From Polytrichum commune (taxonomy: Eukaryota; Streptophyta; Polytrichopsida; Polytrichales; Polytrichaceae): a stretch of 64,000 nt of DNA. Below are positions 26,256 to 56,921 of the stretch, one piece after another; position 1 is the stretch's first letter, and every line of letters begins with the position of its first letter. The stretch covers positions 25,000,144-25,064,143 of the forward strand of contig OX485809.1 in the NCBI GenBank assembly GCA_950295325.1, in the 5' to 3' direction. Both the position numbers and the translations under genes were made by a program. The notes below the pieces were generated by a model that was not told where the DNA came from, made no database searches, and saw only the letters and a list, made by a program, of their open reading frames with translations.

Positions 26256-27521
26256 TCAGTGCACACACTTCTTCTGGTAGCTGTCGTAGTGATACCCACT
26301 CTTGCAATTCACGCCACACTTTCCATGGCTGCAATAACCCATCAACAGAACACCCCAAATTCACAAATTGGTCAACATCATCTTGCACGCATTTTGCAAA
26401 CGAGATTACGACATTAATTTGCTTATGATCAGGGAAATGCGACAAATTTGACTTACCGTAGGCTTCCCATATTACTCAGTTAATAATTTTGCTGAAACGG
26501 GTGACAATTTTGATGAGAAATCATAGTATCCCAGACGTGATGAAATAATCAAATTCTTCTCCCTGTATGTCTGAAAAACTTAACAAACTCAATCCACGAA
26601 CCTCCAAGTTGGGAGAGCGTTAGGATCAGTGCAGGGGCACAGCTCCAATTGCCGCATCCGCCGCAGTTGAACACATCCTTGCCCACATCGGTCTCGCAAC
26701 CGTTCTCCTTCTTTCCATCGCAATCACTCCAGCCAGAGGTGCATTTGGAGCCGCACTTGCCTCTGAAGCAGGTGGCAATGCTGTAGGGGTAGGTGGGGCA
26801 GCTCACACCGCAGCCTCCGCAGTTCTTCACAGACTTGCCCACGTCGGTCTCGCATCCGTCGTGCATGTTGTGGTTGCAGTTCTTCCACCCTTGTGTGCAC
26901 GTGGACTCGCACTTTTCGTTGTTACACTTGGTGGTGCTGTAGGGGTAGCTCTTGCAGCACACTCCACACTTGCCGCAGTTCTTCAGGTCGCTCTTAGTGT
27001 TAGCCTCGCACCCATTCTCCTTCTTGTGGTCGCAATCAGTCCATCCCGAGCTGCAGGTGTAGCCGCACTTGCCATTGGAGCAAGCGGGTACGGTGTAGGG
27101 GGTAGGCGGGACACCGGACACCACAGTCACCGCAGTTCTTCTCATCGCTCCTAATTAATGGATGTCTCACATCTGTTGTGGGGATTGTAGTCACAGTCCT
27201 TGCATCCAGATTTGTACCACGCATCAGCCGAACCTGCCAGAAACAGACACAATGGTATCTTATCGAAGGACATTAGTGAAACTCTTCCGAGCCACAATTG
27301 AAACGTTACAAGTGCATGCACCACCTAATTAAATCATCCATAACCTAAGCTTGGATCAACAGACATTAATGTTGTTGAAATAATCAAGTACACGAGATGC
27401 ACAGAAACCTATATTTCCATCGTAATGGTTGAGAGATCGACGAGAGGTCACTTGCCAGCAAGACTGCAGATCATCAACAACGAGCAGCAACAGCTGCGAT
27501 TGCTCCATGAGATGCCGCCAT
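26256..27521 (-). pseudogene. Broken copy of the 52-residue-module Cys-rich secreted protein
   Basis: Three exon-like blocks on - mirror the intact paralogues: a signal-peptide-like exon at about 27,456-27,521, a repeat exon at about 26,602-27,233 and a last exon at 26,256-26,328. The repeat exon holds three full modules (for example NCGKCGVCCKSYPYS and NCGGCGVSCPTYPYS), and the last exon still reads SHGKCGVNCKSGYHYDSYQ. The frame is lost several times: in the signal exon, at two places early in the repeat exon (a net +4 and a +1 relative to the paralogue at 33.5 kb) and again near the end of that exon. The first intron also starts GC rather than GT, and the usual CTGCAG before the second donor is changed. 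A TATA box remains. Probably a pseudogene; sequencing error is unlikely to explain all the breaks. Confidence 0.8.
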
Positions 27522-27641
27522 CCTGCCTGACCTCCAAATTTGATCAATGGCCTTTTCTGACAAGGATCGATGGAAGGGGGACTTGAAATCGAACTGTGCT
27601 TGACGGAATGAAGCAAGTCTGGTGGTTTGAAGGCTGTAGGG

Positions 27642-27649
27642 TTTATATA
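27642..27649 (-). promoter_or_regulatory. TATA box of the broken Cys-rich copy
   Basis: On -, TATATAAA lies about 120 bp before the expected start. It matches the position of the TATA boxes of the intact copies. Confidence 0.55.
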
Positions 27650-28184
27650 CTACTATTTTGGAACTTAATCGGTTTGGATGTGAGAAATGCTTCAGGTATT
27701 TATTGACCATTCAAGGTTAACCCTGAGTGGTTTTCACTAGCCTGAGTCATATTGTCAACGAGAGTCCTGTGCATCTTAATTAGCCTGGGATTGATATTCA
27801 ATATACCAAGCATCTTAATTTGCTGCAGTGGAAGCAGTGTAGATTGACCCGGGTTTCGAACATGAATTTATGTGAGGAAGTGCAATGTCAACTGGTGCCT
27901 GGATACGTTGTTTCTTAACCGCACTGTAACAGTACAATGCATGTCACGAGTATTTTGTCTCATTCAATCAGTGCATGATGTGCACGGACTTATGCCGTCG
28001 TTAATTTGAGTTTCTGCAAAGCCACCAGATTGCAGTTGATTCTAAGATTTGAGGAGATCAGACCCATCGGATGGAGAAATGATTGGAACGACTGATTTCA
28101 TCTGCAGAGTTATTGACCTCAATGTGTAAGGCTCAAGTGCTTGGACTGTACCGAAGGAGACAGATTCGGATGGGAATCTCAATG

Positions 28185-28376
28185 TCCGGGGAGATTTGGG
28201 AAAAAATCGGTCGAGATCCAAGTGTTTCCAAGTCAAACCGGTTGATATCTTGCGGTTCTCCTTTAATATAAGTGTGAGGTACATTCTATAGATTTCTCTC
28301 AAGTGATCGACTTGAACTTAGAACCGCCCGTTTCTGAAACTCGACCGGCCCATCTGTAACTAGCGGTAGGATCTCC
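28185..28376 (+). repeat. Dispersed repeat R1, copy 2
   Basis: Same family as 3225-3438 and 63,111-63,322. Begins CCGGGGAGATTT and ends near TAACTAGCGGTAGG. Shared central block GTGAGGTACATTCTATAGATT. Confidence 0.6.
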
Positions 28377-28947
28377 CTGTTCACAGAATGGGATCTGTTA
28401 CATAATTCTCCTTGTTGCCATTAGGACCCCCATCAGAGAACCACTTGGTCTCGATCAGAAGTAATTTGGCCGTACTGAATATTTCTTCTTCTTCCATTTG
28501 TTGCATGTCGTAACGGAAAGTTGACCATTTCGTTCGAGCTGGTCACAGAATATTACTGATGACACTTAGAGGTAATTTGACGCCACATGTTTTGGAATCC
28601 AGGTTAACACGCACGCAGCCTGTTCATCATATTCTTGACCATGTACTATTAAATCTTACCAACACATTTAATTAGCGTCGATGGAATCTTACGCTAAATG
28701 TCTATATTCACAAATCTGTAAAAGTCACTGAATCGCAGAAATGTGCAATTAATTGCAACCGCGAGTCGTAGGTGGGGTTGGACCGGACTTAATGGGTAGA
28801 CATAGCATACAAGCTGATTCTACAAGCACACCATACGAGCGGATCGCTCAAGAATCAACCCTGTTATCGAAAGGATAGTAGAATCGAGGATAAATCATGT
28901 AAATATGCAAGGCAGGCGGGTGAACTGCGTGTAAATTGCTTCCGATC

Positions 28948-28976
28948 CGCATGGGAAGGGCATGGGAAGGGCATGG
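28948..28976. repeat. Short tandem repeat, GGGAAGGGCAT words
   Basis: About 2.5 copies of an 11-bp word, GCATGGGAAGG. A small microsatellite-like feature without visible function. Confidence 0.6.
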
Positions 28977-29312
28977 GAGTGCATGCGTACGCGTGCGCGG
29001 TGAAGGATCTGCGTCGAGGGGTGGAGGTAGGTAGGTAGACCATGTTCTTCCGAATCCAGATAAGGTTGACGGGGCAATCTCCGACGCGACGATATTGCTC
29101 CCACAATTTACTTACAAAAGGCGTTCATCAAGGTGGTCCCGTGGAACTCTTGAGTGACAATGACATCCTGTCCGGTTGCTTGCACAAAATAGACGCCGGA
29201 GTCAATTGTTACTATTTTGAGCGCGGCGACAATCTGGCGGCACTGTCTCAACCCTGCATGCCAGGGCTATTGGGCTGTTTTAGCCGCGGGGAGGCCCGGC
29301 AGCTGAGCGTGC

Positions 29313-29575
29313 TCAAGTGGAGGCCACACATGTTTGAAAACGCCGCTTTGGGAACGGAGTTTGGTAAGCCTCGACATGTGTCTAATTTCGAGCAGCTGGG
29401 GTTTTGAGGTTGGTCCTTTTTTATTGGTTAAAACCGTCCGTTTTCAACTCCGCTCACAAATGGAGGTTTCAAGTTAGGCATATGTCAAGGTTAACATTTT
29501 TTTGTCTTAGCTTATCAAATTTTGTTTCGAAATCAACGTTTTTGAACGTTTGGTTTCTTCTTCATGCCCGATCAC
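29313..29575. repeat. Foldback repeat F, copy 1
   Basis: The left arm (GAGGCCACACATGTTTGAAAACGCC..., GAGTTTGGTAAGCC) is loosely complementary to the right part (GCTTATCAAA...AACGTTTTTGAACG), with GGTTGGTCC...TTGGTTAAAACC in the middle. The same words form the long palindrome at 59,364-59,835. The right arm is shortened here. A 121-codon open frame that overlaps (29,042-29,407) shows no family resemblance and is not called. Confidence 0.55.
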
Positions 29576-29639
29576 ACCAAAAAATTTCGTCTTGTTCTAG
29601 CTGTGAAATTGTTGGAGATTATATTGAGAAGTAATAATT

Positions 29640-31735
29640 GACCCACTCCTTTTCACACGATTACAGCCGAAGATGTCGACAATGGTGTTAGAACATGATG
29701 GTGTGATCAACCCCTTAGTAATAGCTCCTCAAAACGGGGACTACGGCACCGTCCATCTTGCCTGAGATGGATGGCCGCATGCCCTGTTTGACTTCAAAAA
29801 AACGTTGGTCACAAATCCCATATCGAATGCACCTCACTTCAAGATCATGTGTATATATATATCTTCACTTCAATACAATATCAAAGTATTGAATAGGAAC
29901 TTTGGTCTCTAAGTGGCAACCACTAGTAAAGCTTGTCCTCATCTAGGACGTATAAGATTTGAAAAGAAGTCTCCATTAGCAATCAAGCTACCCCCAAGCA
30001 CTTAGGGATAAGGCCTTATTTTTAGGGTTTAAGGTTTTAGGGCCCTTAAGTGAGGGTTAAGAGTTTTGGGTTTACGGTTTTGATTGCACTTAATTAGTTT
30101 GAATGTGGTTGATACCTGTGAAAGGAGAAGGCATTAATTACAATATCAAATTTTAATAAACGAATTGGTAGAAATTTTTACAAGTATTCATAGACATTCA
30201 AAAGACCCATTTAATCACAAACGACAAGTGAATTTGTCAAAGATTTTAAGTTCAATATTAAAACATTAAGGCCCTTTCAAACGGTTAGTTGCAAAAGGTA
30301 CAAGATTATTATTAGTAAGGAACTTATTCCATGCTTTCTTGACGGTTTCAATTGCTAATAATTTTTCAAACAATTACTTACTTGCAATGTTGAAGTGAAC
30401 ATGTATATTGGACCTTGACATGAAGTGCACTCAATACAAGCTTTGCTTATTTATGTTTAGTGTCATATGGTATTTTATAATCATATGACATCTCTAAATT
30501 TTGGCTTCAAGCATGCCCGGAAGACTTCACATGGGCCAATAGGAGAGTGGCCATAATAAAGGGAGGGGGGGATGGGATGGGTTCGGTGGGCCATACCAAG
30601 CACATAGTAGGTCATCTAAGTAGAGATAGGGACAACTCACCACATTATTGGCCCTCTAATCTAGATAAAGGGAGGGGTAGGACCACCCGCGAGGTTGGCA
30701 CCCTTAGATAAGGTTGAGGCATCTATGACTGCTAAAATATGAGAGTTTGCATTTGTTTAGATGGAGTAATAGTGGGGAATTATTTTTCTTGCGAAGAGAA
30801 ACATTTTCTAAGGAGAATGCAATTATCTTTATAAAATATCTACCGTTTGGATTCTTTAAATTACACAATCGTGTGTTTTATGTACACAAATGCTATTATT
30901 GGAGCACTTCATAGTTGCGCATACAACAAGGCCCCTGGACCACAAAAAATAAAACCAAATCAAGTGTTTTTACTGGTGATGGATCATGAACTCCACAACA
31001 ATGGATATGATTCGGAGATGTCACCTCCAAAAAAATCATTGTGAAACCTTAGCTCCGTCGAAGTGATTTCTTAAAGTTCAGGCAACTGTCCAATCCCAAT
31101 GAACCATGGAGATGCATATCAGTCTCAATGGACTAAATGCACACATAGGGGTGGGTATTTTTTACTAGCCTAGTACTTGAGGAAGGTAACATCCAATCCA
31201 TAATGTTTGCCACACCCCACACACCATCCCGTACACAAAAGTGTGAACTTTTCCCTTGAAATCGCGTGATTCCATGCCTGGTCCTTTAGAGGTTAAGGTC
31301 GAGGCATCTATAATCTCAATACATAGAGTTCCCTAAAGCCGTGAAGTTCTACACACATTGTTGTCATTATTTAAGATGATAGGAAAAGCCGTGAAGTTTC
31401 ATACATGTAGTAGTCACATCTAGCATGATGAAAAAGTAAGTTAAAAGGGCATGCATTTGGGTTCCTTGAAAAGGCATCAACTGTATACAAGTTTTTGTCT
31501 ACCCATTACCATAGAGTAGGCCAACTTATGTTGTGAATATTGGTTGGGGGAGAATCTTGTCTTTAGAAATATATTGTAATTTCAATACTTCAAATAATTT
31601 GTGATTTTTTAAATAAATGTCGTGATATCAATTTCTAGGCCTATAAAAAATAACTCCATTGTCACACTAGTATCACACTTATAAAAAATTGCTAAAGTTG
31701 TCATAAATGGGTTTGTCTAGGGTTTGTCTACCTTT
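29640..31735. other. Intergenic, no gene seen
   Basis: No coding region is supported. A small palindrome with GTGTCATATGG...CATATGACAT lies near 30,460-30,492. G-rich runs occur near 30,563-30,573. Confidence 0.55.
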
Positions 31736-31739
31736 TAAA

Positions 31740-32025
31740 GCACTCCCTCACCAAATTCTAGTGGGAATGAGGGCAAATGTAGATGGGATCTAGTGGGGAA
31801 GTATTCATATGCCCCAACCAACTGTTGCTACTTTAAGTGTTTAGTGGGCGCAAAGAATTTTAGTGGCCCATGGTCACGGGCCTCCACATTCAACTAGACA
31901 ACTAGTGGGTCAAATGTTGTCCTTATGAAAACCAGATTTGGTTGCTTTTGTTATTTTCATAAGGACAACCTCCGACCCACTTATGTAGAATCTAGTGGGC
32001 GAGCAGCCTACATGGAAACCCAACC
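31740..32025. repeat. Degenerate copy of the 42.2-kb TIR element
   Basis: The right end, AATCTAGTGGGCGAGCAGCC then TACATGGAAACC, matches the right end of the element at 42,244-42,684. Interior words such as CACGGGCC and AGTGGC are also shared. An inner inverted repeat, AGTGGGTC...TTGTCCTTATGAAAA against TTTTCATAAGGACAA...GACCCACT, spans 31,904-31,981. The left end is not clear. Confidence 0.5.
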
Positions 32026-33129
32026 TAAGCTTAATCGCAGGTTGCTGAATCCCGTGGCAAGACAACACAAGGGAGAGTGCTTATTGAGGTCATTTCTTTG
32101 AGACATTTGGGCCTGGTCGGTGTGTAATTGGTATCTGCATGCAGAGGTTGGTGACCTTTAGTTGATTCCGCAATGCCACTAGATGTCAGCTGCTGGGCAT
32201 GTCACAGACTCATCCCTAGGCCCACTGTGACAAGCGTCGAGATGACAAGATCATACCAATGGCTTCAGTTTAGCCATGGGTTTGAGAAATGCTGAAATGA
32301 TATAATTAATGTTGACATTATCTCGATTGTCACAAAATTTGAAGGAAATTATCACACGATTTTGGATTTTATGTTAAAGGAGACATTTTCTTCAGGTGGT
32401 AGGTGGGTATGATACTCCATGTGCCCGAGCAGATCTCCAGGAAGTGATACTTAGCAGCCACTTCCAAATCGATGATCTGATGGTTCTCCTCATTGCCATT
32501 TAAAAAATGCAGAAAGTGGAAAGATTGTGGTGCCACTTCATCTTTATTGGTTACGTACATTGTGTAAACAACTGTTTTCAATCAATTAAAGTTAAGATCG
32601 ATGCTGGGATTCCACATCAAGTGTTGACATGTAACCATCGATTGTCAATTTCAATATATAGGTAAGTATATAGGTAAGTACAATACTAGGGGATACAGTT
32701 TGTAATCTTGGGTGGTAATACACTATGGGTGTTTAGTACGTAAACACCTCCAGCTTCAAGATAAAAACACATCCAGCTTCGAGATAAAAATACATTGAAC
32801 CAATGGATGGAGTGCGAGCACCTTTGTCTGATCCTTGCCTGTTGGTTGCTCGACTATGTGCAGCTTCAGGCCAATAACTTCGCAAAGAAGAGAAATCAAG
32901 TATGTCACGGTTATTCAGCGTTGACAAGCATCGTCAGCACCATAGAATAAAATGTAGTAGGTAGGAAATTCCTTGGCAGCAGTTACTACTATATGATCTC
33001 CTTGCCAAGGTTTCTCTTGCTTCGACAAATTACTTTGTGTCAAAATGACATGTCTAACCGTTATTCTCAGCCGAGTTGTTAGGATCAGGGTAGGTGAGAA
33101 GAAGTCACCAGAAGGTGAGCAAGTCGCCA
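32026..33129. other. Intergenic, upstream of the + Cys-rich gene
   Basis: No gene recognised. A 12-bp direct repeat (TATAGGTAAGTA) occurs near 32,658 and 32,670. The last few hundred bases are the likely promoter region of the gene starting at 33,287. Confidence 0.5.
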
Positions 33130-33135
33130 TATAAA
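33130..33135 (+). promoter_or_regulatory. TATA box of the Cys-rich gene at 33.3 kb
   Basis: TATAAA in CCATATAAAGAGG, 152 bp before the ATG. The copy at 49.8 kb carries a similar ACCATATAAAT, supporting it as a core promoter. Confidence 0.65.
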
Positions 33136-33286
33136 GAGGCTGGCACCAGGCACTTATTGTATCAGCATTCACGATCTTGCCTTCTGTTTGGAGCTCAGAG
33201 CTAGAACACGCACCTCCTACTTGTCTGGGCAGCTTGTTCGGATTTGGATTTTCGATTGGAGTCCGGAAGCAGCAGCTGCTAGAAGC

Positions 33287-34374
33287 ATGGCGGTCTCTCA
33301 GCAATTGACGGTTCTGGCCGTCGTCGTTGCGATCTTCTGTATTGCAGGTAGACAATGCACTTTCGTAAATTACAATTTTGATTGCTCTGCGTGTGATCCA
33401 CATGTGATTCAGCTCACTGTGGATGAAGGCAATGGTGCATCAGTTCACGAATTACAATTTCTTTTAGATTTTCCCAATGCAACATTAGCAAGGGAATTCG
33501 GCTACAACCTGTCCATGCAATATGAGCACTGAATGAATTCTCTTGTTGTTTCTGTCCAATTGGTTGCAGGCTCGGCTGATGCGTGGTGCAAGTCCGGGTT
33601 CAAGGACTGCGACTACAACCCCCACAACGGATGCGAGACATGCATCCAGAAGGATGTAAAGAACTGCGGCGATTGTGGCGTCCAGTGCCCAACCTACCCC
33701 TACACCAAACCCACTTGCTCCAACGGCAAGTGCGGCTACACCTGCAGCTCGGGATGGACCGACTGCGACCACAAGAAGGAGAACGGGTGCGAGGCTAACA
33801 CCAAGAGCGACCTGAAGAACTGCGGCAAGTGTGGAGTGCAGTGCAAGACCTACCCCTACAGCACCACCAAGTGCAACAACGGAAAGTGTGAGTCCACGTG
33901 TACACAGGGGTGGAAGGACTGCAACCACAACATGCAGCACGACGGGTGCGAGACCGATGTGGGCAAGGACGTCCACAACTGCGGAGGCTGCGGCAAGAAG
34001 TGCCCCTGCAACGATTTCAACGCTCTGCCCACCTGCAGGTATTTATTTACATCCATACATGCATTTGCGCATTTCCTCTCTATCTCCATGGCCGTGGCCG
34101 TGGCCGAAGAGGAGGTTTGGCAGGACCGATCCTTAAATTATATTATCCTGGCTAAAACTGTACCCGCAACCGCCAGTATCATTCTTTGACATGAATGAGC
34201 AATTAATCCTTAATTATCTTGTATTGCACTTATTCAATATCCCTGTTTTGAGACTAACCTGTGCGGATGAGTATCGGATGTGGTTATGGTGGATGTGGCA
34301 GCAATGGCAAGTGTGGAGTGCAGTGCAAGAGTGGATTCCACTACGACAAGCACCAGAAGAAGTGTGTGTACTAA
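33287..34374 (+). CDS. Secreted Cys-rich protein, two 52-residue modules
   Basis: Three exons: 33,287-33,347, 33,570-34,038 and 34,302-34,374; 200 aa. Residues 1-25 form a signal peptide with likely cleavage after GSADA, so the protein should enter the secretory pathway. The mature chain holds two full modules of about 52 residues starting at NCGDCGVQC (residue 52) and NCGKCGVQC (104), then a shortened NCGGCGKKCPC module and a terminal SNGKCGVQCKSGFHYDKHQ motif. I count 28 Cys in the mature part. The pattern NCGxCGxxC...GKCG resembles plant STIG1-type domains; the NGCETD linker is closer to repeats seen in myxobacterial secreted proteins. The function is unknown; disulfide-rich and extracellular is inferred. 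The last exon acceptor (GGCAG|CAATGG) was chosen because it restores the CSNGKCG motif in frame and is shared by all copies. It has one module fewer than the copies at 37 and 50 kb. Confidence 0.88.
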
Positions 34375-34601
34375 GCATTGCCACCAGATGCTGCAGCGCC
34401 GTTGATCAGAAAGTGGGGGCAGCTAGAGTGAATTTATAGTACCTGCTTCTCTAGCCATAGGAATGTGCTTACACTTCGGTGTTGGAGCAGTGATGAATTA
34501 TAGGCATAAGTTCATGTGTATCTTCAGGCTACGGATACGTGGATCACGACATGAGTGAGCACGGAACAAGATTCAGCACCTTGCTGATTCCTATATACAT
34601 A

Positions 34602-34607
34602 AATAAA
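34602..34607 (+). other. Candidate poly(A) signal of the 33.3-kb gene
   Basis: AATAAA, about 230 nt after the stop codon at 34,374. Confidence 0.5.
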
Positions 34608-36357
34608 AGCTTCAAGCAGATCACTTGGTTGTATCTATTTCTTTTGGCGGATGTCAGATGAACCATATGGTGGAACCCTGGGTCCCATCGGCCCCTGGGT
34701 CTTGCATAAACTCTGTAGCATTGTCAATATAACTATGATTCCTTATTACGAAGGCGGCAATCGACTGCTCACATCATGAGCTACATGGAGACATTCAAGT
34801 CAATTTTTTTCAATGGTGATGTAATTAATCATTTTTAAGGTATCATGCTCATTTTTTAGGTGGATTTCAGGTTAAATAAGTAAGAACATATTTTTGAGTG
34901 AAGTTATTAAAAGGGAAACTAGCTGAGAGCAAGAGTGATCCAACGGTGCACTACGAGATGCAGTAATGACTTCAAGCCAACATCTACAAGTTTAGGTTTA
35001 GGTTTATGTTGCAACACAAACACTCCAACAAAATAAATAATTATTGAGGTTTTGAGACAGTCTATGCGGGCTCCGGGGTCCCGCCATAAGGTTCAGATGG
35101 CCACTTAGCAAATTCACTTTTGGCTTAAATCTCATTTTCCTTGTTAGCCCCCAACACATAGTGGTAAAGTTCTACGGCATATTTGCTAGTATTTGATGCT
35201 TGGTGGAAAAGTATATGCCATCTGAATATCATCACCCGCACATATATCATGGTATTTCAATGAACTTTTTGAATCCAAATGTGAGAGCTGTGATGTTAGT
35301 TTATTGCGCTTGTTGCAAAGGGGTTCAAACCTTGAAACTAATATATTTAAACTCCCTCTGAAAAGACTGGACCCAATAGACATTTGGTTATGCAAATGTT
35401 TAGCGTCCACCATAGTCACGACACTTTAGAAAGACTATCTAAAGAATTGTCTATAAAAACGCAATTGTGAATGATCTGGAATCATTTGAAGAAGGTTATT
35501 ACAGTGCTTAATTACTTGTCTACTCATCTGTAACTCTTAAGCTCTGCAGTTAATGAAGGTCAAATATATACTTCTCAGCTTAGACCTTGCATGACCATAC
35601 CCTTCCGTAACCTACCAAAATCTGTAAGGTGTTTTTGGCAATGTTTTTCTCATATTTATTGAGACACATAATATTGCATAACAAGAGAAATTTTCCATAA
35701 ATGAAGGGTGGGCATTGAATCGAGGTTGGCATCGATGGCACTTACAGCGAAATTAGGTGGCTAGACGTTAGTTTATGGAGTTTGAAGTTTTCAACCATCC
35801 GGAGGCCTACAATGTAGAGTATTGTGTGAATTTTGGGCTACTTATGTCTAAATATGTTCAGAGAAGTGCCCCCAATTGGAGTTAGAAATTTCGACCTCAG
35901 TTAATATCTGTAAGTTAGGGTCCATATACAATGGACGAGGTATGCTAACTCAGCTTGCTTCAATTTTATGCTCTCGTTGCAAATCCTCGCTAAGTTATTT
36001 CTAACACTCACTTGCAAAGAATATGGCCGGCGTGCACGTGGCTGGCAACTGAACAAAAAGAACATTACTTTGTTTCCATCTCAGAAGAAGTCTGGTCAAA
36101 TTCACCAACTATTCCACAAATTAGTAGCTAAATTTATGCTCCAATTTCATCTTTTGATTTTTGACTGAAAGGAGACTTTTCAGATTCCCCCACAAACAAT
36201 CAGTGTAAATAGTGTACATTAAGCACATCTAAGACATTGTTGTGCTGTCGAAGACTCATCAAATGAGCGAAAATTTTACAACCAATAGCGATTGTGCAGT
36301 GTGATCAACCTGACATCGGAAGTGCACGATAGTGCACAAGGTTTCCTGCCGGGAAAC
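34608..36357. other. Spacer between two tail-to-tail Cys-rich genes
   Basis: No gene seen. The + gene ends on the left and the - gene at 36,578 ends on the right. Open frames are short and unrelated to known families. Confidence 0.6.
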
Positions 36358-36363
36358 TTTATT
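36358..36363 (-). other. Candidate poly(A) signal of the 37-kb gene
   Basis: AATAAA on -, about 215 nt after the stop codon at 36,578. Confidence 0.5.
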
Positions 36364-36577
36364 CATACATATGTACCGAAACTGCCAAACTTTGTTCCAG
36401 CTTCAGCCTCTCTTGTACAATTATCCACAACATCAACAGCTACCTATACTCTTTCAGTGGTCGAACCTGCACCACCATACTATGGATGTTATTCTGGCTG
36501 CAAGCCTGCAGTAGTTCTGTCGCATTTCCAGCTGCCCCCTTGTTCTTCTGATCCTGAACAATCCAGTCAAGATGAAA

Positions 36578-37824
36578 CTAGTACACACACTTCTTCTGGT
36601 AGCTGTCGTAGTGGAACCCACTCTTGCATTGCACTCCACATTTCCCGTTGCTGCCAATCATCAACAACACATTCAAAATTCACTCACACAAGTTAGTCAG
36701 CTGCGTTAGACATACCTTCGTGTTCTAATCGGTTAACAGAATTTCAACTTACAGGAGGCCTGCGATGTCCATTTGTAATTCTAATCATCTTCGAGCCTGA
36801 CTAAAATGTTAGGAAAAGAAATTTGATGATATTATCACTCAAAAATTAGTAAAATTGAACCTGACATGAATCATTCTCTCTTCGATGATTTATTTAGCTG
36901 TGGAATCAAAGTAGATCAAAACAAAAGTGTCTACCTGCAGGTGGGAAGAGCATTGCCATCGGTGCAGGGGCACTTCTTGCCGCATCCTCCGCAGTTGTTC
37001 ACGTCCTTGCCCACATCGGTCTCGCACCCATTTTGTTTATTGCCATCGCAGTCACTCCAGCCAGATGTGCATTTCGATCCGCATTTGCCTCCGGAGCAGG
37101 TGGCAATGCTGTAGGGGTAGGTGGGGCAGCACACACCGCAGCCTCCGCAGTTCTTCACGTCCTGGCCCACATCGGTCTCGCATCCGTCCTGCATGTTCTT
37201 GTTGCAGTCCTTCCAGAGCTTGTTGCACACGTACTCGCACTTTCCGTTGTTGCACTTGGTGCTGCTGTAGGGGTACGTCTGGCATGACGCTCCACACTTG
37301 CCGCAGTTCTTCGTGTCGCTCTTGGTGTTAGCCTCGCATCCGTCCTGCATGTTCTTGTTGCAATCGCTCCATCCGGGGCTGCAGGTGATGCCGCACTTGC
37401 CGTTGGAGCAAGTAGGGGAGCTGTAGGGGTACGTGGGGCACTTCACACCACAGTCGCCGCAGTTCTTCACATCGTTCTTGATGCATGTCTCACATCCATT
37501 TTGGTAGTTGTGGTCGCAGTCCTTGAATCCGGATTTGCACCACGCATCTGCGGAACCTGGTGTTGCAAACAAGAAGTGGATCAGGAGTGAATGAAACCTG
37601 GATATTCGCATCATAAAAAGGTACCTAGTAAATCGACCATAGCATCAGCAGGCATACCAACTTCAGCTTCGTTCGAATTCTGCTTACACTATAGACTCCC
37701 AAAACAATAACATGAGGAATAACATCTATCGATGCATTATTAGCAAGTGTAGAAATGAAATACCAGCCACGCAGCAGATGGCAACAACGATGGCAAGCAC
37801 CGTCAAATGCTGGGAGATCGCCAT
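36578..37824 (-). CDS. Secreted Cys-rich protein, three 52-residue modules (copy at 37 kb)
   Basis: Three exons on -: 37,764-37,824, 36,935-37,556 and 36,578-36,650; 251 aa. Signal peptide MAISQHLTVLAIVVAICCVA, cleavage likely after GSADA. NCG motifs fall at residues 52, 104, 156 and 208, an exact 52-residue period, giving three full modules plus a shortened one. Each module has the order NCGxCGxxC, TYPYS, C..GKC, C...W.DC and GCE(T/A). Module 3 carries an extra Cys (GVCCPTYP), which makes the mature count odd (37 by eye). Exon sizes of 61, 622 and 73 nt are identical to the + copy at 49.8 kb, and the repeat-exon protein is identical to it. Intron 1 is 207 bp. Role unknown; extracellular and disulfide-rich by inference, STIG1-like in part. 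Confidence 0.9.
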
Positions 37825-42240: not shown

Positions 42241-42243
42241 TCT

Positions 42244-46289: not shown

Positions 46290-46739
46290 CACTACTTTTA
46301 CTTTCTATATTTACATATAGTAAAAGTATTCTATTCATAGCTCTATCTCATAGTTCTACTATGAATCTTCTATCTTTGGTTCTTCTAGAACCTTCTTTCA
46401 TCTCTTATCTCAATTCCATTCTTCCAATTGAAACTGTCTAATTCCAATTGGATTCATCCATTCTTCTTTCTAGTTGGAACTGTCTAATTCCAACTAAATA
46501 CATCCATCCTTTATTCCAGTTGGAACTGTCTAATTCCAACTAGCTTTATCTATGGAGTGGTCTAACTCCTGTGCACCTCATCGAGAGTTGCCTAACTCAC
46601 GTGCACATGTTCTCAATTGGAATGGTCTAGTTCCAATGCACTAAATGCGGAGCTGTCTAACTCCAGTGCACATGTTGTCAATCTGGAGTTGTCTTACTCC
46701 TTTCCATTCATCCTCAACTGAGAGTTGTCTAGCTCTCAT
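46290..46739. repeat. Array of short hairpins with covarying stems
   Basis: From about 46,424 to 46,738 there are nine units of the form stem-(T/C)(T/G)GTCTA-stem'. Examples: AGTTGGAA-CTGTCTAA-TTCCAACT (twice), ATTGGAA-TGGTCTAG-TTCCAAT, GGAGT-GGTCTA-ACTCC, TGAGAG-TTGTCTAG-CTCTCA. The stem sequence changes from unit to unit while pairing is kept; the loop hardly changes. Less regular hairpins (GGTTCTTCTAGAACC, TACTTTTAC/GTAAAAGTA) precede it from about 46,290. Spacing is 30-60 bp. No family recognised. Confidence 0.75.
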
Positions 46740-47234
46740 TTTTCTCTGCTTACACACTGGCACATGTAGTTAGAATATTTCTTAATAATTCTAGTTACAT
46801 TACAATGTGCTACTTTCTTGTTTTGAAAATTGGCAAGTTATCCGTACTTTGGTTATCATGCTGAAGTGAGTTTTTGAGATCCTACTACAATATTAAGGAT
46901 CAAGTCACATGGACCCATCCAACCCATCTGCCCATGAAGAACAAAAAAATGAGTGATGTCATTGTAGTAAAGAATGAGTGACATTGACATTGTTCCTACA
47001 CAATGCACCTCCATGTGAAGCAACCTATTCACTCATTCTTCATACCTTTATCTCCCTTCCCATGTATTTGAGAGAAGTCCATAGGGTAGGCTAGTACCTA
47101 CAAATGCCACAATTGTGGAAGGAGGCTAAAATACCTACCACTGGATCATAAGATAGGTACATTAAATATGGTAGTAAGTGTCATATGGTATTTTATGTCA
47201 CTATGATAGCTTTTCAAATGACACTTCTTATGAA

Positions 47235-47525
47235 TAAGTGAACACAAACTGTCAGGAATGATGGATACGTTCATCCATTGGCCAAAACCCTACCTTCTCT
47301 TGTAAGCAAGGTGTGATGAAATATTGTCGTGGATGATTGAAATTTGGATGAAAAATCACTTGGTAAGTGATAGTAATTGCAACACTGTAAATCTAAGAAT
47401 CCCCAAATAATGTTGGGTCAGCATTTAGTGTTGGTGACACTATACCGCTGTTTAGAATTAGTCTTGAGCAAGACACTTAGAATTGGTGACACTAAATATC
47501 ATATTTAGTGTAGTTACCATTGGGG
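47235..47525 (-). repeat. Dispersed repeat R2, copy 2
   Basis: Inverted relative to 2885-3190, with the same ordered blocks (ATTAGTCTTGAGCAAGACA region, TTTAGTGTTGGTGACACTAT, GTAATTGCAACACTGTAAAT). Confidence 0.6.
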
Positions 47526-49687
47526 GATCCATCCAAGCTTACTTATTCTTGGGTCCTTTTGATTACAAGATGGGTAACAAGGGGGTCAACTCATCTATTT
47601 TTTGGATGGGTTGAAGGTGAATGGGTCCATGGGTTGTCCCATCTATGAACGGGTGCCCTACCTTTTTTCCCAAAAAGAATGATGGATGGGTCTAAGTGAC
47701 TTGACCCTAACTTCAACTCGAAGATTGTGTGCAGTAGGCTCAATTGGTAGGTTATTTGAAAGCGGTTGTTATTTTTCCTCGCAATGAAGTGATTCATTCT
47801 TGCAAATTTGTTTGAAAATTAGACAAAAAATGGTCTCCATTTTTTATCATAACAAGAAAAAGAAAAAGAACCCCACAAAATGTAAACAATCTCCTCATAA
47901 ATTGGCCTTTAGAACTTGGTCTTGCTTTGGTATTTTGTAATGGTCCTAGGGCGGCAACTCTCCCTTTTTGGACAATTGTTTCTAAATCACTTCTAATACT
48001 TCGAGTGATTAAATGATTTGTTCGTTCACAAAAAGAAAAGCCCGCTTGAAAAGAGAGCATTCAGAGGAATGCATTGATACAATTTGTTTCTGGTTTAGAA
48101 AGAACTTGCACTTTCATAAAATTCCTTGAAATTTATAGACTTTAATTTCCTTTTACAATGCAGATTTAAAGCAGCTCCCAAATGCATATTTAAAGTAGCC
48201 CCCACTTGCTGCTTCTTAGAAAGGGTTCAGTAGCTCCAAAAACTAAGTTCTAAAAATGGTAATCCTTTGCCTGTGCTACAGATAGTTGCCAACCCCCGGT
48301 AAATGCCAGTAGCATTATGGAAATTTCTTTGAAAGTTCGGTTGGAAAGCTGGCATAAGCTTCCTAGTTAACTATTTTGTAGCCTCACTCTACCCTACTCC
48401 ACTCTACTCTATGATCCTCAACACACAAAATTCATTTCCTTCTGCACAGTGGGCGCGTTGGAATTAAACGGTTGTCAGTACTTCAATCTCCTTCCTGCTG
48501 ACTCAGAGATATCCTTGATGCAAGCTTACAAATAATTCGTCGCGAGTTCACAGCTAAATTCTTTCCATGCAGTAGGGCAGGTATATTCTTCATCCTAGCC
48601 TAGTATCTGCGAGGAATCTAATCGAACATGACAGTGGTAAGTAATAAGCCTATGTGTCATGATCTTCTGCAAGATTTCATTTCTTATTCCAAACTCCACA
48701 AGCTGCTTTAGTGTTGACCGAACTTCCATGTCCATCAAAGATACTTGAAAGCATCTGAAGGTAGTCTACTATGTTCTAAGATTTCGCAGGCAAATATCCA
48801 TATGAAGACATTGACTAAAGCTTGCTTCATTTTTGCAAGGACATTGGATATGAAACCTGGGTATATATGAAACAACTAGGCTGCTACCGAATCAAAGCCC
48901 AAGTGTATGCTAAGTTATAACTGAGAAAAGCTGTTTAGAGATGGAATATTTGATCAATGGCAACACGAATGCCACCCACCCCTCACCGACCACATGATCT
49001 TATCGATGGAGGATCGAGTTGGATCGTTTATCTTGACTGAGTTCGACTCCTATGAATGCTGGAAGGAGGCCGAGGGTCATTGACTTTTAGACGATTGCAG
49101 AATATCTCCAACGTCAGAGCTCGTTGATTGGACTGTAGCAGGTTGCTGGTCTTCAAGTTTTTGCAGCTAATGAACTCGGCCAACTCCCTAAGTGGTTGCT
49201 AATGAATGTAAGTTCAAGAGTTCATTTGTTGTTGTGAGGTGGTTGTATATTGATGCAACTTAGCTGTGTGTCATTACCACTGGTGACTTGGTGCATGCGG
49301 TGATAAGATTCGGAGCCGCAGTTGACAATGTGTCGACTCAAAAGAAAGCGGCAACATTCCGAGAAATTAGCTGGGTTGACCAGGCAACGTCCCAGGGGCC
49401 AGTACTCGACGTAGACTCAACGCCTCGATAAATGGTACTTGAAAAACGTTGAATTTTTTGGTGACAACCATGCAGATGACAGTGTCAATTTTGTTGTTTG
49501 GTGATAAACAGCCTTTTACGCTGACAAAATCTACGATATCAACTCATAGGCTTGCCGGAGGATGTAGGTTAAGGATTCACAATTATTGACTCACTTGGTT
49601 CAAGTAATTACTCCAAATGACGGGTGAGAGTTACCGAGTGGAAGATGGAAAAAAAAGTTCCAGAAGCTGGCACCAAGAAGATCACCA
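47526..49687. other. Intergenic, upstream of the 49.8-kb Cys-rich gene
   Basis: No gene recognised. Composition rises in G+C toward 49 kb. The last few hundred bases are the probable promoter of the gene at 49,806. Confidence 0.55.
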
Positions 49688-49693
49688 TATAAA
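49688..49693 (+). promoter_or_regulatory. TATA box of the 49.8-kb Cys-rich gene
   Basis: TATAAA within ACCATATAAATAC, 118 bp before the ATG at 49,806. Confidence 0.65.
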
Positions 49694-49805
49694 TACACAT
49701 GGTGGCACTAAGAAAATATTGTGTCCAGTAACAGTTGCCTCGTGATCTCAGAGTCCATAGCGAGGAGTTCGACATACGCTTGAGAACGAAGGCAGTTACT
49801 CAATC

Positions 49806-51205
49806 ATGGCGATCTCCCGGCATTTGACGGTGCTTGCCATCGTTGTTGCCATCTGCTGCGTGGCTGGTATTTCATTTCTACATTTGTTAACATTGCATCG
49901 ATAGATGTTGTTTCTCATGTTATTGTTTTGTGAGTCTACAGTGTAAGCAGAATTCGAACGAAGCTGAAGTTGGTATGCCTGCTGATGCTGAGGTTGAATT
50001 ACTACGCACCTTTCCATGATGTGAATATCCAGGTTTCATTCACTCCTCTGATCCACTTCTTGTTTGCAACACCAGGTTCCGCGGATGCGTGGTGCAAATC
50101 CGGATTCAAGGACTGCGACCACAACTACCAAAATGGATGTGAGACATGCATTAAGAACGATGTGAAGAACTGCGGCGACTGTGGTGTGAAGTGCCCCACG
50201 TACCCCTACAGCTCACCCACTTGTTCCAACGGCAAGTGCGGCATCACCTGCAGCCCCGGATGGAGCGATTGCAACAAGAACATGCAGGACGGATGCGAGG
50301 CTAACACCAAGAGCGACACGAAGAACTGCGGCAAGTGTGGAGCGTCATGCCAGACGTACCCCTACAGCAGCACCAAGTGCAACAACGGAAAGTGCGAGTA
50401 CGTGTGCAACAAGCTCTGGAAGGACTGCAACAAGAACATGCAGGACGGATGCGAGACCGATGTGGGCCAGGACGTGAAGAACTGCGGAGGCTGCGGTGTG
50501 TGCTGCCCCACCTACCCCTACAGCATTGCCACCTGCTCCGGAGGCAAATGCGGATCGAAATGCACATCTGGCTGGAGTGACTGCGATGGCAATAAACAAA
50601 ACGGATGCGAGACCGATGTGGGCAAGGACGTGAACAACTGCGGAGGATGCGGCAAGAAGTGCCCCTGCACCGATGGCAACGCTCTTCCCACCTGCAGGTC
50701 TGTGATTTCACCAACCTGTCCACATTGTGATAGACATGCAATATGCACAGAGAAATCGACATGGAGTTGAGACCTGTATTGAACTTGAAATTTATTGTTG
50801 CAATTAACGCCTCTGAAGCCTCGAAATTCTTAGAGAATGAAACTCCACATCATCTGAATCGCATCTAGTATTGGGTCTAGGCATTCTCCGTATTTGAAAC
50901 ATGTGAACCAAATTTGAACTACCGTCCCAGGTAATTTACCACAGGAATGTCCCTTATTTAGTAGAGGTGTAGTTATAAAACATCGAAGGTATGACATATA
51001 CATCACATCATGAAATCCTTGAATTTGAGTTATGTTTGAATACATAATGTATTAGGTAACGTAAAAAAAATCTGCCTGTGCTGGAGCTTAATTAACTGTA
51101 GTCTATGTGGGGTGTGATTGTGTAAATGGCAGCAACGGGAAATGTGGAACGCAATGCAAGAGTGGATTCCACTATGACAGCTACCAGCAGAAGTGTGTCT
51201 ACTGA
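49806..51205 (+). CDS. Secreted Cys-rich protein, three 52-residue modules (copy at 50 kb)
   Basis: Three exons: 49,806-49,866, 50,076-50,697 and 51,133-51,205; 251 aa. Signal peptide MAISRHLTVLAIVVAICCVA, then GSADA and the mature chain. NCG motifs sit at residues 52, 104, 156 and 208. The 207-residue repeat-exon product is identical to that of the 37-kb gene. Differences from it are one residue in the signal peptide (Arg for Gln) and two in the last exon (GTQC for GVQC, QQKC for QKKC). The last acceptor (GGCAG|CAACGG) again restores CSNGKCG. The alternative TAG acceptor 35 bases upstream would not keep frame. Intron 2 (435 bp) is longer than in its twin (284 bp). Inferred secreted, disulfide-rich, function unknown. 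Confidence 0.9.
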
Positions 51206-51456
51206 GCGAATTTCACTCAGTAGATGAAGCAGTCGTCTGATCATCAGATGACACGCGCACAAGGACCATTGTCTTTCAAATAATGCAGATGATCATCTGA
51301 ATCTTGCAGCATAGGTATTTCTTCAGTAAGTAGCAAATTTGGTCCAATGGCAATTGTTGGAGGAAGCTCGAGAGGCTATGGCCAGTTAACTTATACCTGA
51401 CCGTGATCACTGGGACACACATGCAAGAAACTTTCTGGGAGCATTGCGTCGTGTGT

Positions 51457-51462
51457 AATAAA
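51457..51462 (+). other. Candidate poly(A) signal of the 49.8-kb gene
   Basis: AATAAA, about 250 nt after the stop codon at 51,205. Confidence 0.5.
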
Positions 51463-52168
51463 GAGAGGAATTTATGGATTGTGTATTATGATTTTGATGT
51501 GCTTGCTGATCTCAGGTTTAATTGCTGTGTTTTTATCTCCTCAATTCCTCAACTAACTATATATCCATAGCTATGCATGCAACACACTAATCAAACTCCT
51601 CCTTTGAAATGCCCTTGGTTCGAAATATAACTTTGTTCCCCAGAGCATTGAGATTATTGTCACAGGATTTCTTCCAAATTCATCATGATCCTGGATTGCT
51701 AAAACAAGTTCTCGGCCATGAAGTGCAAGCTCCCATTTTGGGACTTATTTTAGGAGAACTCATTCCTGCATCAGATTCTCCAGTCACCATATTTGTATTT
51801 CACAGCACACAAAGTTTTTAAATGTATTAATGGGTTTCATGATGTATCATAAACTTGCTATAAAATTTACAAAATTTACTCTCAGTGATTGGTGCAATAT
51901 TGTTTTGCATACCTTCATCCAGAGGCCTAACTTTTTTAAATCATTGCCCACCCTAATGCCACATATGCGTAAGTGCACAATATTCCATTTGATTGAAAAT
52001 TATGCTACAGAATAGTAACATACACTGTGTATGTTCTGTTATGTCACCGGCCTAAAAATGTCAGCTGCCTTGTATTGAATCCTTTGTGTAGGTGATACTT
52101 ATTGTCAATATGTTAATTCTTGTTACTTTGGGGGTCGCAATTTCCATATTATAAGACCACTATTACAG
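51463..52168. other. Intergenic, no gene seen
   Basis: Non-coding, AT-rich; no repeats recognised apart from the flanking MITE. Confidence 0.5.
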
Positions 52169-52689
52169 AACCTTATCCCAGGTACGCAACTCCCATATTA
52201 TACGCAAGGGGCATCGTACTTAAAACGGCTTAGAGGACGGCTTTTGTAAAAATTATATCAAATTATATCAAATTAAAATGATCAAAAATTTGGGTGAAGA
52301 CCAAATTAAATAAAATGAGATGAAAAAAAAGTTGGGTTGCATATTTATTAAGCCTCCCATTAAAATTATAAAACATGAATAGTTGCCTCCCATTAAAATT
52401 ATAATTCATTCACAATGTTAAAATTTTATTAAAAAGTCTAAAAAGTTGGGTAGTTTGACCTATGGTACCTGTTTAAAAAAATCATATAATTAGGTTTTTA
52501 ATGCAATTATATGCTTCAAAATATATTCATTTCCTATATATAATTACATTTTTGGATTCCTTGTTAGAAGGGCTACAAGGGTTTCCTACATTAAAACAAA
52601 TTGTATCACTCAATATTGGACTAAAACGCATTATAAGTGATTATAATCAGGACCATATAATACGGGAGTTGCGTACCCGGGAACCTTAT
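52169..52689. mobile_element. hAT-like MITE with 8-bp target duplication
   Basis: The element 52,177-52,681 (505 bp) has inverted ends CCC(A/G)GGTACGCAACTCCC extending into (A/G)TATTATA, about 26 bp with two mismatches. AACCTTAT is present on both sides (52,169-52,176 and 52,682-52,689). The interior is AT-rich with a doubled ATTATATCAA word. Non-coding. An 8-bp duplication fits hAT; a 9-bp reading fitting Mutator cannot be excluded. Confidence 0.82.
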
Positions 52690-55393
52690 ATGACATACAA
52701 TGTGAACAACCTGAAGTGAATTGTTAAAATAAGTCACATATTTGAAGAAGTGAATGAACACCACTTTTTTCCATAATATTTTGAAAAAAAAATGTTTATA
52801 AAAGCATATATCATAAGTTAGCACATGTCTAGAATATGAAAATTTATGGTACAGATAGGAGAGTGGGCAACTTAAGTCATTTTTGGCAACTTCTTACATA
52901 ATTTTAATATGTTATGATACATTATAATACTAACATTATTAACTTGATACGCATGTGATGCATTTATTATACATTATCCTATCTTCAAAATCTAATTGAA
53001 TTCCACATATTCTACCCGGTTCTATGTGCAAATAACATGGAAGTTGCCACCTTAGGTTGCTACTTCACTCCTTACTTCATTCCTAAATTTTTTACTTACA
53101 CATAATCTCAAATGTTTAAGATATATATTAAAAAACTACTTTTGATATGTTGATAATATATGGCATTTATAGAGTTATAGACAATATAGTGTAACCTCTT
53201 GCAAAAAATGTGACACCATAAACATTGTAGTGCTCTCCCAGGGGTTGGACTATTTTCAATTCTTCAAATTGGAATGACCAAGCAATGAGATGCTTTACTA
53301 TTTTCCATGAGGTTGCACCACATCCATATGATCACTTGATATTACTATATGTGTAAGCTCATTGAAGAATTTGTTCTCTTCCCTTGCTGGCCTAGTCTTG
53401 GATTAAGCCTAGGCTAGCATATGTGGCTTGGACATTGTAACTTGTCTTATGACGTAATCCATGTGCTTTGAGGGAATCCAAAAAGGTCCAAATGCCTCAG
53501 AAGACCTTACAATAATATATGCTTAGAGTATTCTAGATATATTATTTATACAAGGGTTCAAAAATTTCCTTGTACTGCATCTTATGTATGCATTTCCAAA
53601 GCATTCTCAACTTGATACAACCGACAACTAGTCACTCACAAACTTTGGGAGTGACATTTATAAGTCAGTGCATGTCACACCTACTACATGTGGTTAGGTT
53701 GTGCTGCATTGAAGCTCTTAAAGAATGTATATCATACTAGGGATCGAGTCCCACTTTGAAGTTAAAAGTCATGCTAATTGACACCTCTCAAAAGGCAGTT
53801 TACTTGACTCATTGTCAATTTCAACCATACTATAGTACTAAACTGCATTGCAATCTGTGCATTATGTCAACAGAAGCCGGTGAATGGGAATCCCAAGCTA
53901 TGGGAATCACGCGGTAGTAGATGGAAAACTACATTCATAGAATTTGTGGCCATCTAGACGTGGTTAGGAAGGACTGGTATGATCACTTCTTCCTTTTATT
54001 GGATATTATAGTTGATTATCTAACCATTGACTGGCTCAATGAATCCATCTCGGGTTCACATATGAATAGAGACAATGTCCAAGATTGAAGCGTCCCTTAT
54101 GCATGTGGGCTCACGGCTGGTGTCATGATCGTCTCGCTGAGTATGACCCAAATTACGATAGGGACAATACAAATGCACATTCACGCCTAATTATATCACT
54201 CACACAAGCATGTTATAATAAAGTAATCTATACTAGATTGATAAACAATACCTAGTATGTTAATATTGTAATAGTGTCCCATTGCATAGACACATTGCTA
54301 GGTCTCATGCTTTGTCGCCCTAAGTAGGAGAATAATATGACCAAGGACTAGGAATAAACATGTTAGAATTCTTAAAAAACACCGGCCTAAGTCTTAGTGC
54401 GGTAGCAAGGTCTCATGAAACATGAAATTTCATTAGAAAGGGTGAGGGAGCATGAGGCTAACCAATGTTAATATGTGCATCACGGATATTAGCCTTACCA
54501 TGTAAGTAATGCTGGACCAAATAAGAAATAGATGGATGAGACACTTTTCTTCATTCATGAAATTCAAATTTATCAAGATAACATGTTTGATGCCAACTGA
54601 TTACTTGTACATGGATACTTGAACATTGAACACAATAATTTTATGGGTTTGGTTTACATGTTGAAACACACACTACTGAAATCTAATAGATTTAAAGTCA
54701 TATTCGTTTGTCAACTTTGTGACATTCATAATTTCCAGTAAGAGAAAGTGTCTAAGAGAAAGTGTCATATATGTGTCATTTTTGTGCTCAATAAGTTGAC
54801 ATTAACACAGCCAAAAGACGTTAGTGACAGTAGATGTAGGCATGTGCAACTTTGACAGATTCTGCTGATGGGACTTCAGCCTACAACTTGAACTTTGACA
54901 TCCACTGATTGTAATCTATTACAAATTTACATCATGTGCAATCCATAAAAAAAAAAAATAGTAGGTCTGCTTCAAAGGTCATAGAACATATATATATATA
55001 TAGTAAACTGCTGCTGGAAATTATGAACTTCAGTGCATTGTCCATTGAGCTCATGGACTCTGCTATACCATATATCTTAATGCAAGAGCCATTGCATGAA
55101 TGATCCCACTTCTCATGTGATCTGTCAATTTACAGCTTCTCAAAGTCTAGTTGTTAGTGTGGTATACTGGACTAAGCATCAGCCTGGTAAAAGCTGACCA
55201 AAATCATCACTTATTTCTGCATAGGCCATGTAGTGGACAGTAATTCATGGCCGCTCAAACGATATAACTAGACATCCAGCTGTCTGCATCGACAGCTAAT
55301 TAGTAGATTATTGAAGTTTGGTATATCGGTTCACCAGGAGTGAAACTGAATTCCATTGATGGACGACCAGAGTTAGGCGCCATCATCTAGCCA
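52690..55393. other. Intergenic, no gene seen
   Basis: AT-rich, no coding region or clear element. A run of A near 54,949-54,958 and a short (TA)n near 54,989-55,001. The right end is the 3' flank of the - Cys-rich gene. Confidence 0.55.
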
Positions 55394-56921
55394 CTAGTGC
55401 GAGTAATAACACTTCTTCTGGTAGTTGTCATACTTGCACCCACTCTTGCATTGTGTCCCGCACACCCCGTTGCTGCGATCAAAAATCACCATATCTTAAT
55501 TAGCGCATGTCAACAAAATTCATGGCATAGACTGTCATGTTAATTTTTCTGAAGAGTTTAGCCATGAGCCAAGTTCAGGAAATGGGCAGCTATGGAGTTA
55601 ATGTATATGGCATTTCTTGGGTCACAATTGCAATGAAACTAATTTCCATTAATTTTCGCAATTACCAAATGAATAGAGTCCTATGATCAAACAGCACACA
55701 GGATCCGGTAATTCATGAATTGTGAATGTATAATGCGTGAGGAGGGGTGATTCAGTCTACTCTATTTAAGGTAGGCGGAAATCAAATGATGTGATGAATC
55801 TGTATAAATTTGATTTAGCAATCTGGCAGCGCAGGGTAGCAACATAAGGAGAGGATCTCCATGGAAGAGACTGAACATTTTCTGCCAATTGTTGCCTAGA
55901 AATTGAAATTTTGAAAAAGACAAACTTGGTGAAAGAGTATGCTAATTGAATTGAACCTGCAAATGGCCACAGCGTTAGAGTCGGTGCAGGGGCACTTGTT
56001 GCCACATCCTCCACAGTTGTTCACATCCTTGCTCACATCGGTCTCGCATCCATTCTCCTTCTTGCCGTCGCAATCCTTCCATCCCGAGGTGCAAGTGTAT
56101 CCGCACTTGCTTCCGGAGCAGGTGGCAACGCTGTAGGGGTAGGTGGGGCAGGTCATACCGCAGCCTCCGCAGTTGTTCACATCCTTGCTCACATCGGCTT
56201 CGCATCCATTCTGACTGTTGGAGTCGCAATTCATCCAGCCATTGCTGCATTCGTAGCCGCAGTTGCCACCTGAGCAGGTGGGAGAGCTGTTGGGGTAGGT
56301 GGGACACTTGTGGTTACAGTCACCGCAGTTACTCACATCGGTCTTGATACATGTCTCGCACCCGTTCTGTGAGTTGTAGTCGCAGTCTTTGTACCCAGAA
56401 GGGCATTGCGTCCAAGCAGCCACTGGACCTGCATGCGTGATCAATAATACAGCAAACCTGCCTTAGAATGGGCATAGAATAGAATGCAGTCATGAATTAA
56501 GTGTTATGAATGCACAGCGTGAATTCACATTCATACATGACCTGACCGAATTTGTTCAATCTTTTAATATTATCCATATGTATGCATCAATATCGTCATC
56601 AATCTGCAGGGCTACGTATATTGTGTATGTAACTTATATATGTACATAACAATTTGGCGTTATAAGATTGGGGAAGAGAACGCCTTCCATGGAGCATAAC
56701 CCTCTCCTTCCCATGCCCTCAATCTAGGTTGTCCATCTCCGTGATTGAAGGGTCTAGAGGAGAGGGCATCAAAATGGTTATGTCCAGGAACCCCTCTCCC
56801 CCCCCCCGGCGGGCCTCGAAGCCTACCTAATCCAGATGAACAACTTACCAGCAAGACTGCTCACACACAGTACCACCACAATGGCAGCAGCCATGATGTG
56901 CTTCTGAGAGCTGATCGCCAT
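55394..56921 (-). CDS. Secreted Cys-rich protein, two 52-residue modules (divergent copy)
   Basis: Three exons on -: 56,849-56,921, 55,957-56,428 and 55,394-55,472; 207 aa. Signal peptide of about 29 residues (MAISSQKHIMAAAIVVVLCV then SSLAGPVAA). The mature part opens WTQCPSGYKDCDYN, then NCGDCNHKC, NCGGCGMTC and a final NCGGCGNKCPC, and ends SNGVCGTQCKSGCKYDNYQ. Gene plan and intron phases (1 and 2) are the same as in the other copies. It is the most divergent member: NHKC replaces GVxC in module 1, PNSSPTC replaces PYSSPTC, and there is an extra Cys and a YYSH tail in the last exon. Probably secreted; role unknown. Intron 1 is 420 bp, intron 2 484 bp. Confidence 0.88.

Follow-up and report, generated by a model that had tools for sequence, protein, structure and literature searches.

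What is the origin of a moss gene family whose predicted products are arrays of a bacterial-looking cysteine module? The question is raised by a 64,000-nucleotide stretch of the Polytrichum commune genome (hereafter the window; C7:25000144-25064143, in an assembly of 407.8 Mb and 64 contigs), which holds one such family, composed of four intact three-exon genes (here 33k, 37k, 50k and 56k) and one broken copy. Almost the whole assembly is contained in seven contigs of 42-78 Mb, and a further contig, C8, encodes chlL (473 bits), a gene absent from flowering plants. A first-pass annotation, made from the sequence letters, had described four intact genes and a broken copy encoding signal-peptide repeat proteins, and our exon models confirmed this; its span of 26256-56921 was exact, running from the last base of the tail exon of the broken copy to the ATG of gene 56k. 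The results presented here indicate that the family probably descended by transfer from tandem NGCE-type eight-cysteine modules of Myxococcota, and that it subsequently acquired introns, duplicated and came under purifying selection, its product likely being a secreted, disulfide-rich and possibly cation-binding rod. If this is true, a land plant has a multi-gene, selected, extracellular-type family built from myxobacterial repeats, and the family hints at a possible bacterial root of the plant STIG1/GRI proteins.

The repeated module and its occurrence in the genome

Searching the P. commune genome with the 50k protein produced 39 matches at E≤0.001 (40 candidates scored). The C7 cluster extends past the window, with a further member at C7:25129233, and C4 carries two adjoining genes whose open frames span 622 and 633 residues and harbour 11 and 10 anchors, respectively. 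A gene pair (445 and 366 residues) and a further locus (2554k) were found on C6, and three loci (2267k, 2490k and 2522k) on C2. The C6 pair are the most bacteria-like members of the family (GFTCHAGFKDCDGNPFNGCET). Decayed or truncated relatives are scattered on C4, C5 and C7, e.g. at C5:17439998, C7:2861896 and C4:13607864.

The distance between consecutive NCGxCG-type anchors was exactly 52 residues in 15/16 spacings of the C7 genes and 20/20 of the C4 genes (35/36 taken together), but in just 1/9 on C6 and 0/2 on C2, where modules are spaced 79-80, giving 36/47 across eleven proteins of the genome. Among 324 spacings measured in Myxococcota proteins, the peak was also at 52 (75 cases), followed by 43 (68 cases). 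Eight cysteines occupy fixed positions and are each invariant in the 30 distinct 52-residue plant modules (C7 and C4), and all of them carry D or N at loop positions 34, 36, 41 and 46, and E at position 44. The same residues were found at positions 34, 36, 41, 46 and 44 in 86, 94, 98, 71 and 98%, respectively, of 65 bacterial modules, which were chosen for the presence of NGCE/DGCE, a selection that favours positions 41-44.

Affinity to Myxococcota

Two module profiles were compared to genomes sampled evenly from Myxococcota, the two samples overlapping: A2, with rows from C7 (including window gene 50k), C4 and C6, and A4, built from window proteins only. At E≤1e-5, A4 matched 58 of 140 genomes, with a best value of 5.2e-47 over ~200 positions, and A2 matched 136 of 282. 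The A2 scan of genome contigs singled out one locus among 221 pattern matches, the Polyangiaceae record L059 (Myxococcota). The genome of this record contains a 1223-residue open frame matched by A2 at 3.3e-39, and the protein fetched from it is mostly of the other (non-NGCE) module type. No matches were obtained by tblastn against plasmids or in a PDB sequence search, and 17 pattern matches in viral contigs included no family relative.

Family models pointed in the same direction. The NCBIfam model NF041328 (MXAN_6577-like cysteine-rich protein) scored the five window proteins at 27.4-38.6 bits (E 2.5e-6 to 9.4e-10), below its curated cut-off of 100 bits, and the 622-residue C4 frame (L014) at 102.6 bits, above it. 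Scores for Myxococcota proteins were 117.1 (L061), 97.1 (L074), 86.9 (L069) and 82.8 bits (L068). What the plant family has in common with NF041328 proteins is the tandem cysteine module, NCGxCGxxC followed by a GF/GW-x-DCD-NGCE loop, as found in Myxococcota; the plant copies differ in having introns, a separate signal-peptide exon and a TYPYS/YPHS loop. NF041328 and the Pfam Stig1 model PF04885 gave 0 matches in 14 named control genomes, a control covering these two models. In Pfam, four of the five window proteins had no family match at E≤1, and the fifth, 56k, matched Stig1 only marginally (11.7 bits, E 0.37; gathering cut-off 24.1 bits). Four relatives (C4, two C6, C2) had no family match at E≤0.1, on which basis a Pfam model for the module seems to be lacking. 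Two of four bacterial proteins submitted to Pfam likewise remained without a match. L061 matched a MopE metal-binding motif and, under the cut-off, CPL1-like at residues 891-931. In L074, a bacterial protein that has NGCE modules, six stretches were assigned to the CTDC repeat of Dictyostelium (PF00526, 78.6 bits), the best at residues 43-63.

A one-module hidden Markov model (HMM) was then derived from 15 C7 blocks, 12 of them distinct, including those of the 129k gene, which lies beyond the window, and of the open stretch in the broken copy. It was run against 54 bacterial proteins, i.e. open frames of at least 100 residues with at least 2 anchors, from which contained duplicates had been removed (L061 and L063 still overlap). 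The HMM matched 43 of these 54, with a best score of 60.7 bits and a median of 40.5 among matches. All 31 proteins fetched with A2 were matched, a figure biased by their having been chosen with a related profile, together with 11 of the 22 fetched with Stig1, not so chosen, and the single L059 protein. The best bacterial domain ranked below that of C4 (74.3 bits) and above those of C6 (54.2) and C2 (43.0). The nearness to myxobacterial repeats suggested at first pass was well borne out as similarity.

Selection, age and phylogeny

The twin genes 37k and 50k differ at 8 array-exon positions, all synonymous third positions (nonsynonymous divergence, dN, 0; synonymous divergence, dS, 0.07). The total over 911 aligned bases is 29 mismatches, 21 of which fall in ~285 bases of adjoining intron. 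For the other nine gene pairs, dN/dS ranged from 0.21 to 0.32 and dS from 0.39 to 1.1. The array is kept by purifying selection. Because it is spread over four chromosomes, shares introns and includes diverged members (dS up to 1.1), the family is not recent.

To place the plant modules, most weight was given to a careful tree of 57 rows and 52 columns, since a quick tree of 115 rows was poorly searched and constrained trees had higher likelihood than it. For the 57 rows, C7, C4 and bacterial modules were drawn at random, those of C6 were the first six out of eight, and the four STIG1 rows were all retained; a single long bacterial row had been excluded beforehand. The C2 modules did not fit the 38-60 length limit and entered neither tree. 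A split separating 14 rows of the other bacterial type and the 4 plant STIG1 rows from 24 bacterial NGCE rows and 15 plant 52-type rows received 93/87 support. Ten of these 15 plant rows (C7, C4 and one C6) grouped at 98/96, and five C6_a rows stood loose among bacterial rows. The program flagged few columns and an unsettled bootstrap for this tree. After removal of the NGCE loop columns (36 left), the same grouping was recovered more weakly (68/73) and three bacterial rows switched side. In the 115-row tree, the plant 52-type rows as one clade were not rejected by the approximately unbiased (AU) test (p 0.67). With this moderate support, the trees agree with plant copies nested in bacterial diversity, without proving that nesting.

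Several observations weigh against an origin by transfer from Myxococcota or against the product proposed for it. Forcing all plant modules, STIG1 included, into one clade was not rejected (AU p 0.27), and neither was a single clade of all plant rows in the 115-row tree (AU p 0.84). The tree alignments have 52 or 36 columns and include plant STIG1 as 4 modules from two proteins. The module-profile searches covered one bacterial phylum, Myxococcota, P. commune was the one eukaryote searched, the other genomes being prokaryotic, and the donor is traced no closer than Myxococcota-like bacteria. The 3' intron was not clearly seen in the C6 relatives. Regarding the product, D or N occupies loop position 38 in 80% of the plant modules and in roughly half of those from bacteria, and an AlphaFold model from five window rows reached a predicted local distance difference test (pLDDT) value of 46, was uninformative and was left unused.

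The likeliest rival reading is an old but under-described plant, or wider eukaryote, family inherited vertically since some ancient event. The four-chromosome spread, shared introns and high dS are as expected of a family that is not recent, the joint plant clade is not rejected by the AU test, and the genome comparison among plants is confined to P. commune. On the other hand, some bacterial proteins give C7 modules higher scores than the C6 and C2 relatives from the same genome do, plant copies lie within bacterial diversity in the trees, and an ancient transfer would be a transfer all the same. We consider vertical inheritance unlikely. As for the transfer followed by intron gain suggested at first pass, it is favoured by the bacterial affinity and the introns and is the best explanation at hand, but nesting is not settled by the trees.

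STIG1, convergence and contamination

Plant STIG1 proteins are of secreted type and share the NCGxCGxxC start of the module, and the family might be a derivative of the plant's own STIG1 domain that arose within this lineage. In favour of this, NF041328 matches both kinds of protein in the P. commune genome, and 56k has the marginal Stig1 score given above. The resemblance, as first noted, lies in the module start; STIG1 lacks the NGCE loop and has CCxGxC in its place. When challenged with 10 STIG1 proteins of P. commune (the near-identical copies L045, L053 and L054 were left out, as was L042, which represents the L050 gene), the C7 HMM matched none at E≤10. The opposite outcome envisaged at first pass, with the module scoring best against STIG1 and showing no bacterial affinity, did not occur: 0/10 STIG1 proteins compare with 43/54 bacterial ones. 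Moreover, the 39 matches that the 50k protein found in its own genome do not include any STIG1 locus listed by PF04885, and several STIG1 genes (e.g. L044 and L050) differ from the window family in holding a signal-like start and the cysteine domain in one frame. Descent from the plant's own STIG1 is thus quite improbable.

Independent appearance of the same cysteine spacing in plant and bacterium deserves even less credit. Cysteine-rich repeats easily become alike, but the likeness exceeds the cysteines, extending to G-W/F-x-D/N-C-D/N and D/N-G-C-E, and E-values reach 5e-47. In addition, the C7 HMM matched none of 64 decoys preserving cysteine positions and none of 64 reversed decoys (0/128), and because such decoys never score, the regular spacing is far beyond chance. 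Finally, bacterial contamination or an assembly artefact, for which the GC content of the array exons could be invoked (56-59% in the four intact genes, e.g. 50076-50697, vs 39.8% in the window), can practically be dismissed given that introns, dispersal and purifying selection make it very unlikely, the copies being integrated in a plant chromosome (a 42 Mb contig, with plant-type Copia and PP2C frames around the genes) and accompanied by GT-AG introns, duplicates, a decayed copy and relatives on C2, C4 and C6. Possible sources of the high GC of the array exons are ancestry in bacteria, the coding of Gly/Cys-rich sequence and gene conversion.

Proposed route and product

Under descent from Myxococcota modules by transfer, an ancestor of the moss lineage would have taken up a Myxococcota-like NGCE-module gene, which would then have gained a signal-peptide exon and an intron within the last module and have been duplicated to several chromosomes, giving the C7 cluster, the C4 pair, the C2 loci and the C6 pair. 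Both the direction and the mode of this transfer are deduced from the comparisons above. A precedent for microbial genes in mosses is provided by the NAS genes of Polytrichum, Funaria, Hypnum and Tetraphis, which are described in PMC12454661 as being of bacterial or fungal origin, flanked by plant genes and in some cases furnished with introns. NAS is an enzyme gene, in contrast to the repeat proteins of the window.

Concerning the product, exon 1 encodes signal-peptide-like sequences, so the proteins are predicted to be secreted. Most likely, four disulfides hold each module together as a small folded unit, and a divalent cation, for example calcium, is most likely bound by its loop, (D/N)C(D/N)xxxx(D/N)GCEx(D/N). 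Such a site would not be a standard motif, because loop position 38 is often not D/N. A chain of roughly 3-11 modules could then act as an extended extracellular rod in the wall or matrix. In the C4 relatives a glycine-rich stretch lies ahead of the array; glycine-rich stretches are common in wall proteins.

STIG1 and two bacterial module types

STIG1 itself has bacterial relatives, as 89 of the 188 Myxococcota genomes sampled contained PF04885 matches above the cut-off of that model (including loci L097-L121). Bacterial L097 and L105 obtained 158.5 and 97.1 bits, compared to 82.3, 99.2 and 121.7 bits for three P. commune STIG1 proteins. Bacterial 52-residue modules are largely of the NGCE type and the 43-residue ones of a CGGxCV, STIG1-like type, and single bacterial proteins, among them L073, L109 and L098, mix both. 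From the Stig1 scores and the two module types in Myxococcota it follows that the two plant families have separate bacterial counterparts, and, since STIG1 too has Myxococcota relatives, that the contrast is less one of plant STIG1 against bacterial NGCETD than one between two bacterial kinds of module, both of which have a branch in plants. We put forward, as a possibility rather than an expectation, that the NGCE family and STIG1/GRI are two plant branches of one Myxococcota-centred eight-cysteine family, and that both may descend from bacterial secreted repeats through two transfers or a single transfer of a mixed protein. If so, STIG1/GRI, a classic reproductive signal family (pollen-stigma and cell-death signalling), would be of bacterial origin. 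A literature search found no paper on the NGCE module in plants or on a bacterial origin of STIG1. Stig1 is mentioned in two papers, one reporting a Stig1-superfamily match among secreted proteins of a Trebouxia alga (PMC12712428) and the other listing Stig1 among domains of fungal small secreted proteins (PMC3828140).

The plant name of the Stig1 family conceals its bacterial membership. Of 40 Stig1 matches listed for the P. commune genome, 38 exceed the cut-off, one of them only together with its neighbours. STIG1 genes of P. commune form clusters at C1:11.63-11.69 Mb, C7:5.08-5.29 Mb and C7:30.51-30.54 Mb, and tandem Stig1 domains are present in L052, L044 and L050 (C7:20.07 Mb).

Gene models and surroundings in the window

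Exon models were drawn from splice signals and homology and are therefore predictions, with protein lengths given as summed exons. The four intact genes lie at 33.3-34.4 kb (+), 36.6-37.8 kb (-), 49.8-51.2 kb (+) and 55.4-56.9 kb (-), and each starts with an exon for the signal peptide, continues with the array exon and closes with a short tail exon. Directly after the first of these exons comes the 5' intron, in phase 1; the 3' intron, in phase 2, interrupts the last module with borders TGCAG/GT ... AG/C, its donor TGCAG/GT being common to the C7, C4 and C2 genes. The tail exon encodes NGKCGxQCKSGFHYDxxQxKCVY or near variants.

Gene 33k (+; 200 residues) consists of exon 1 at 33287..33347 (signal peptide MAVSQQLTVLAVVVAIFCIA; donor CAG/GTAGAC), an array of 52/53-residue modules at 33570..34038, and exon 3 at 34302..34374, with the end of the last module and the stop. 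Gene 37k (-; 251 residues) has its signal peptide (MAISQHLTVLAIVVAICCVA) at 37764..37824, the array at 36935..37556 and the tail exon at 36578..36650. Its twin 50k (+; 251 residues) has exon 1 at 49806..49866 (signal peptide MAISRHLTVLAIVVAICCVA), an array at 50076..50697 with residues identical to those of 37k, and the tail exon at 51133..51205. Gene 56k (-; 207 residues) comprises a signal-peptide exon at 56849..56921 (MAISSQKHIMAAAIVVVLCVSSLA), the array at 55957..56428 and exon 3 at 55394..55472 (SNGVCGTQCKSGCKYDNYQKKCYYSH; acceptor CGCAG/C), the DNA of which is 70% identical to that of 33k exon 3. The broken copy (26256..27233, -) retains its tail exon (26328-26256) and an array remnant (27233-26549) with an in-frame TAG in the first module and a frame change in the last. 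No signal-peptide exon was detected for it at >62% identity to that of 33k, in a scan that likewise failed to find exon 1 of 56k, which is intact but more diverged.

Elsewhere in the window, positions 22001-24000 are very AT-rich (22% GC vs 39.8% for the window). Pieces of a Copia-type retroelement, with integrase and reverse transcriptase frames, occupy 11531-18113 (-), and exons resembling a plant PP2C phosphatase gene lie at 4694-8653 (+), both as judged by eye.

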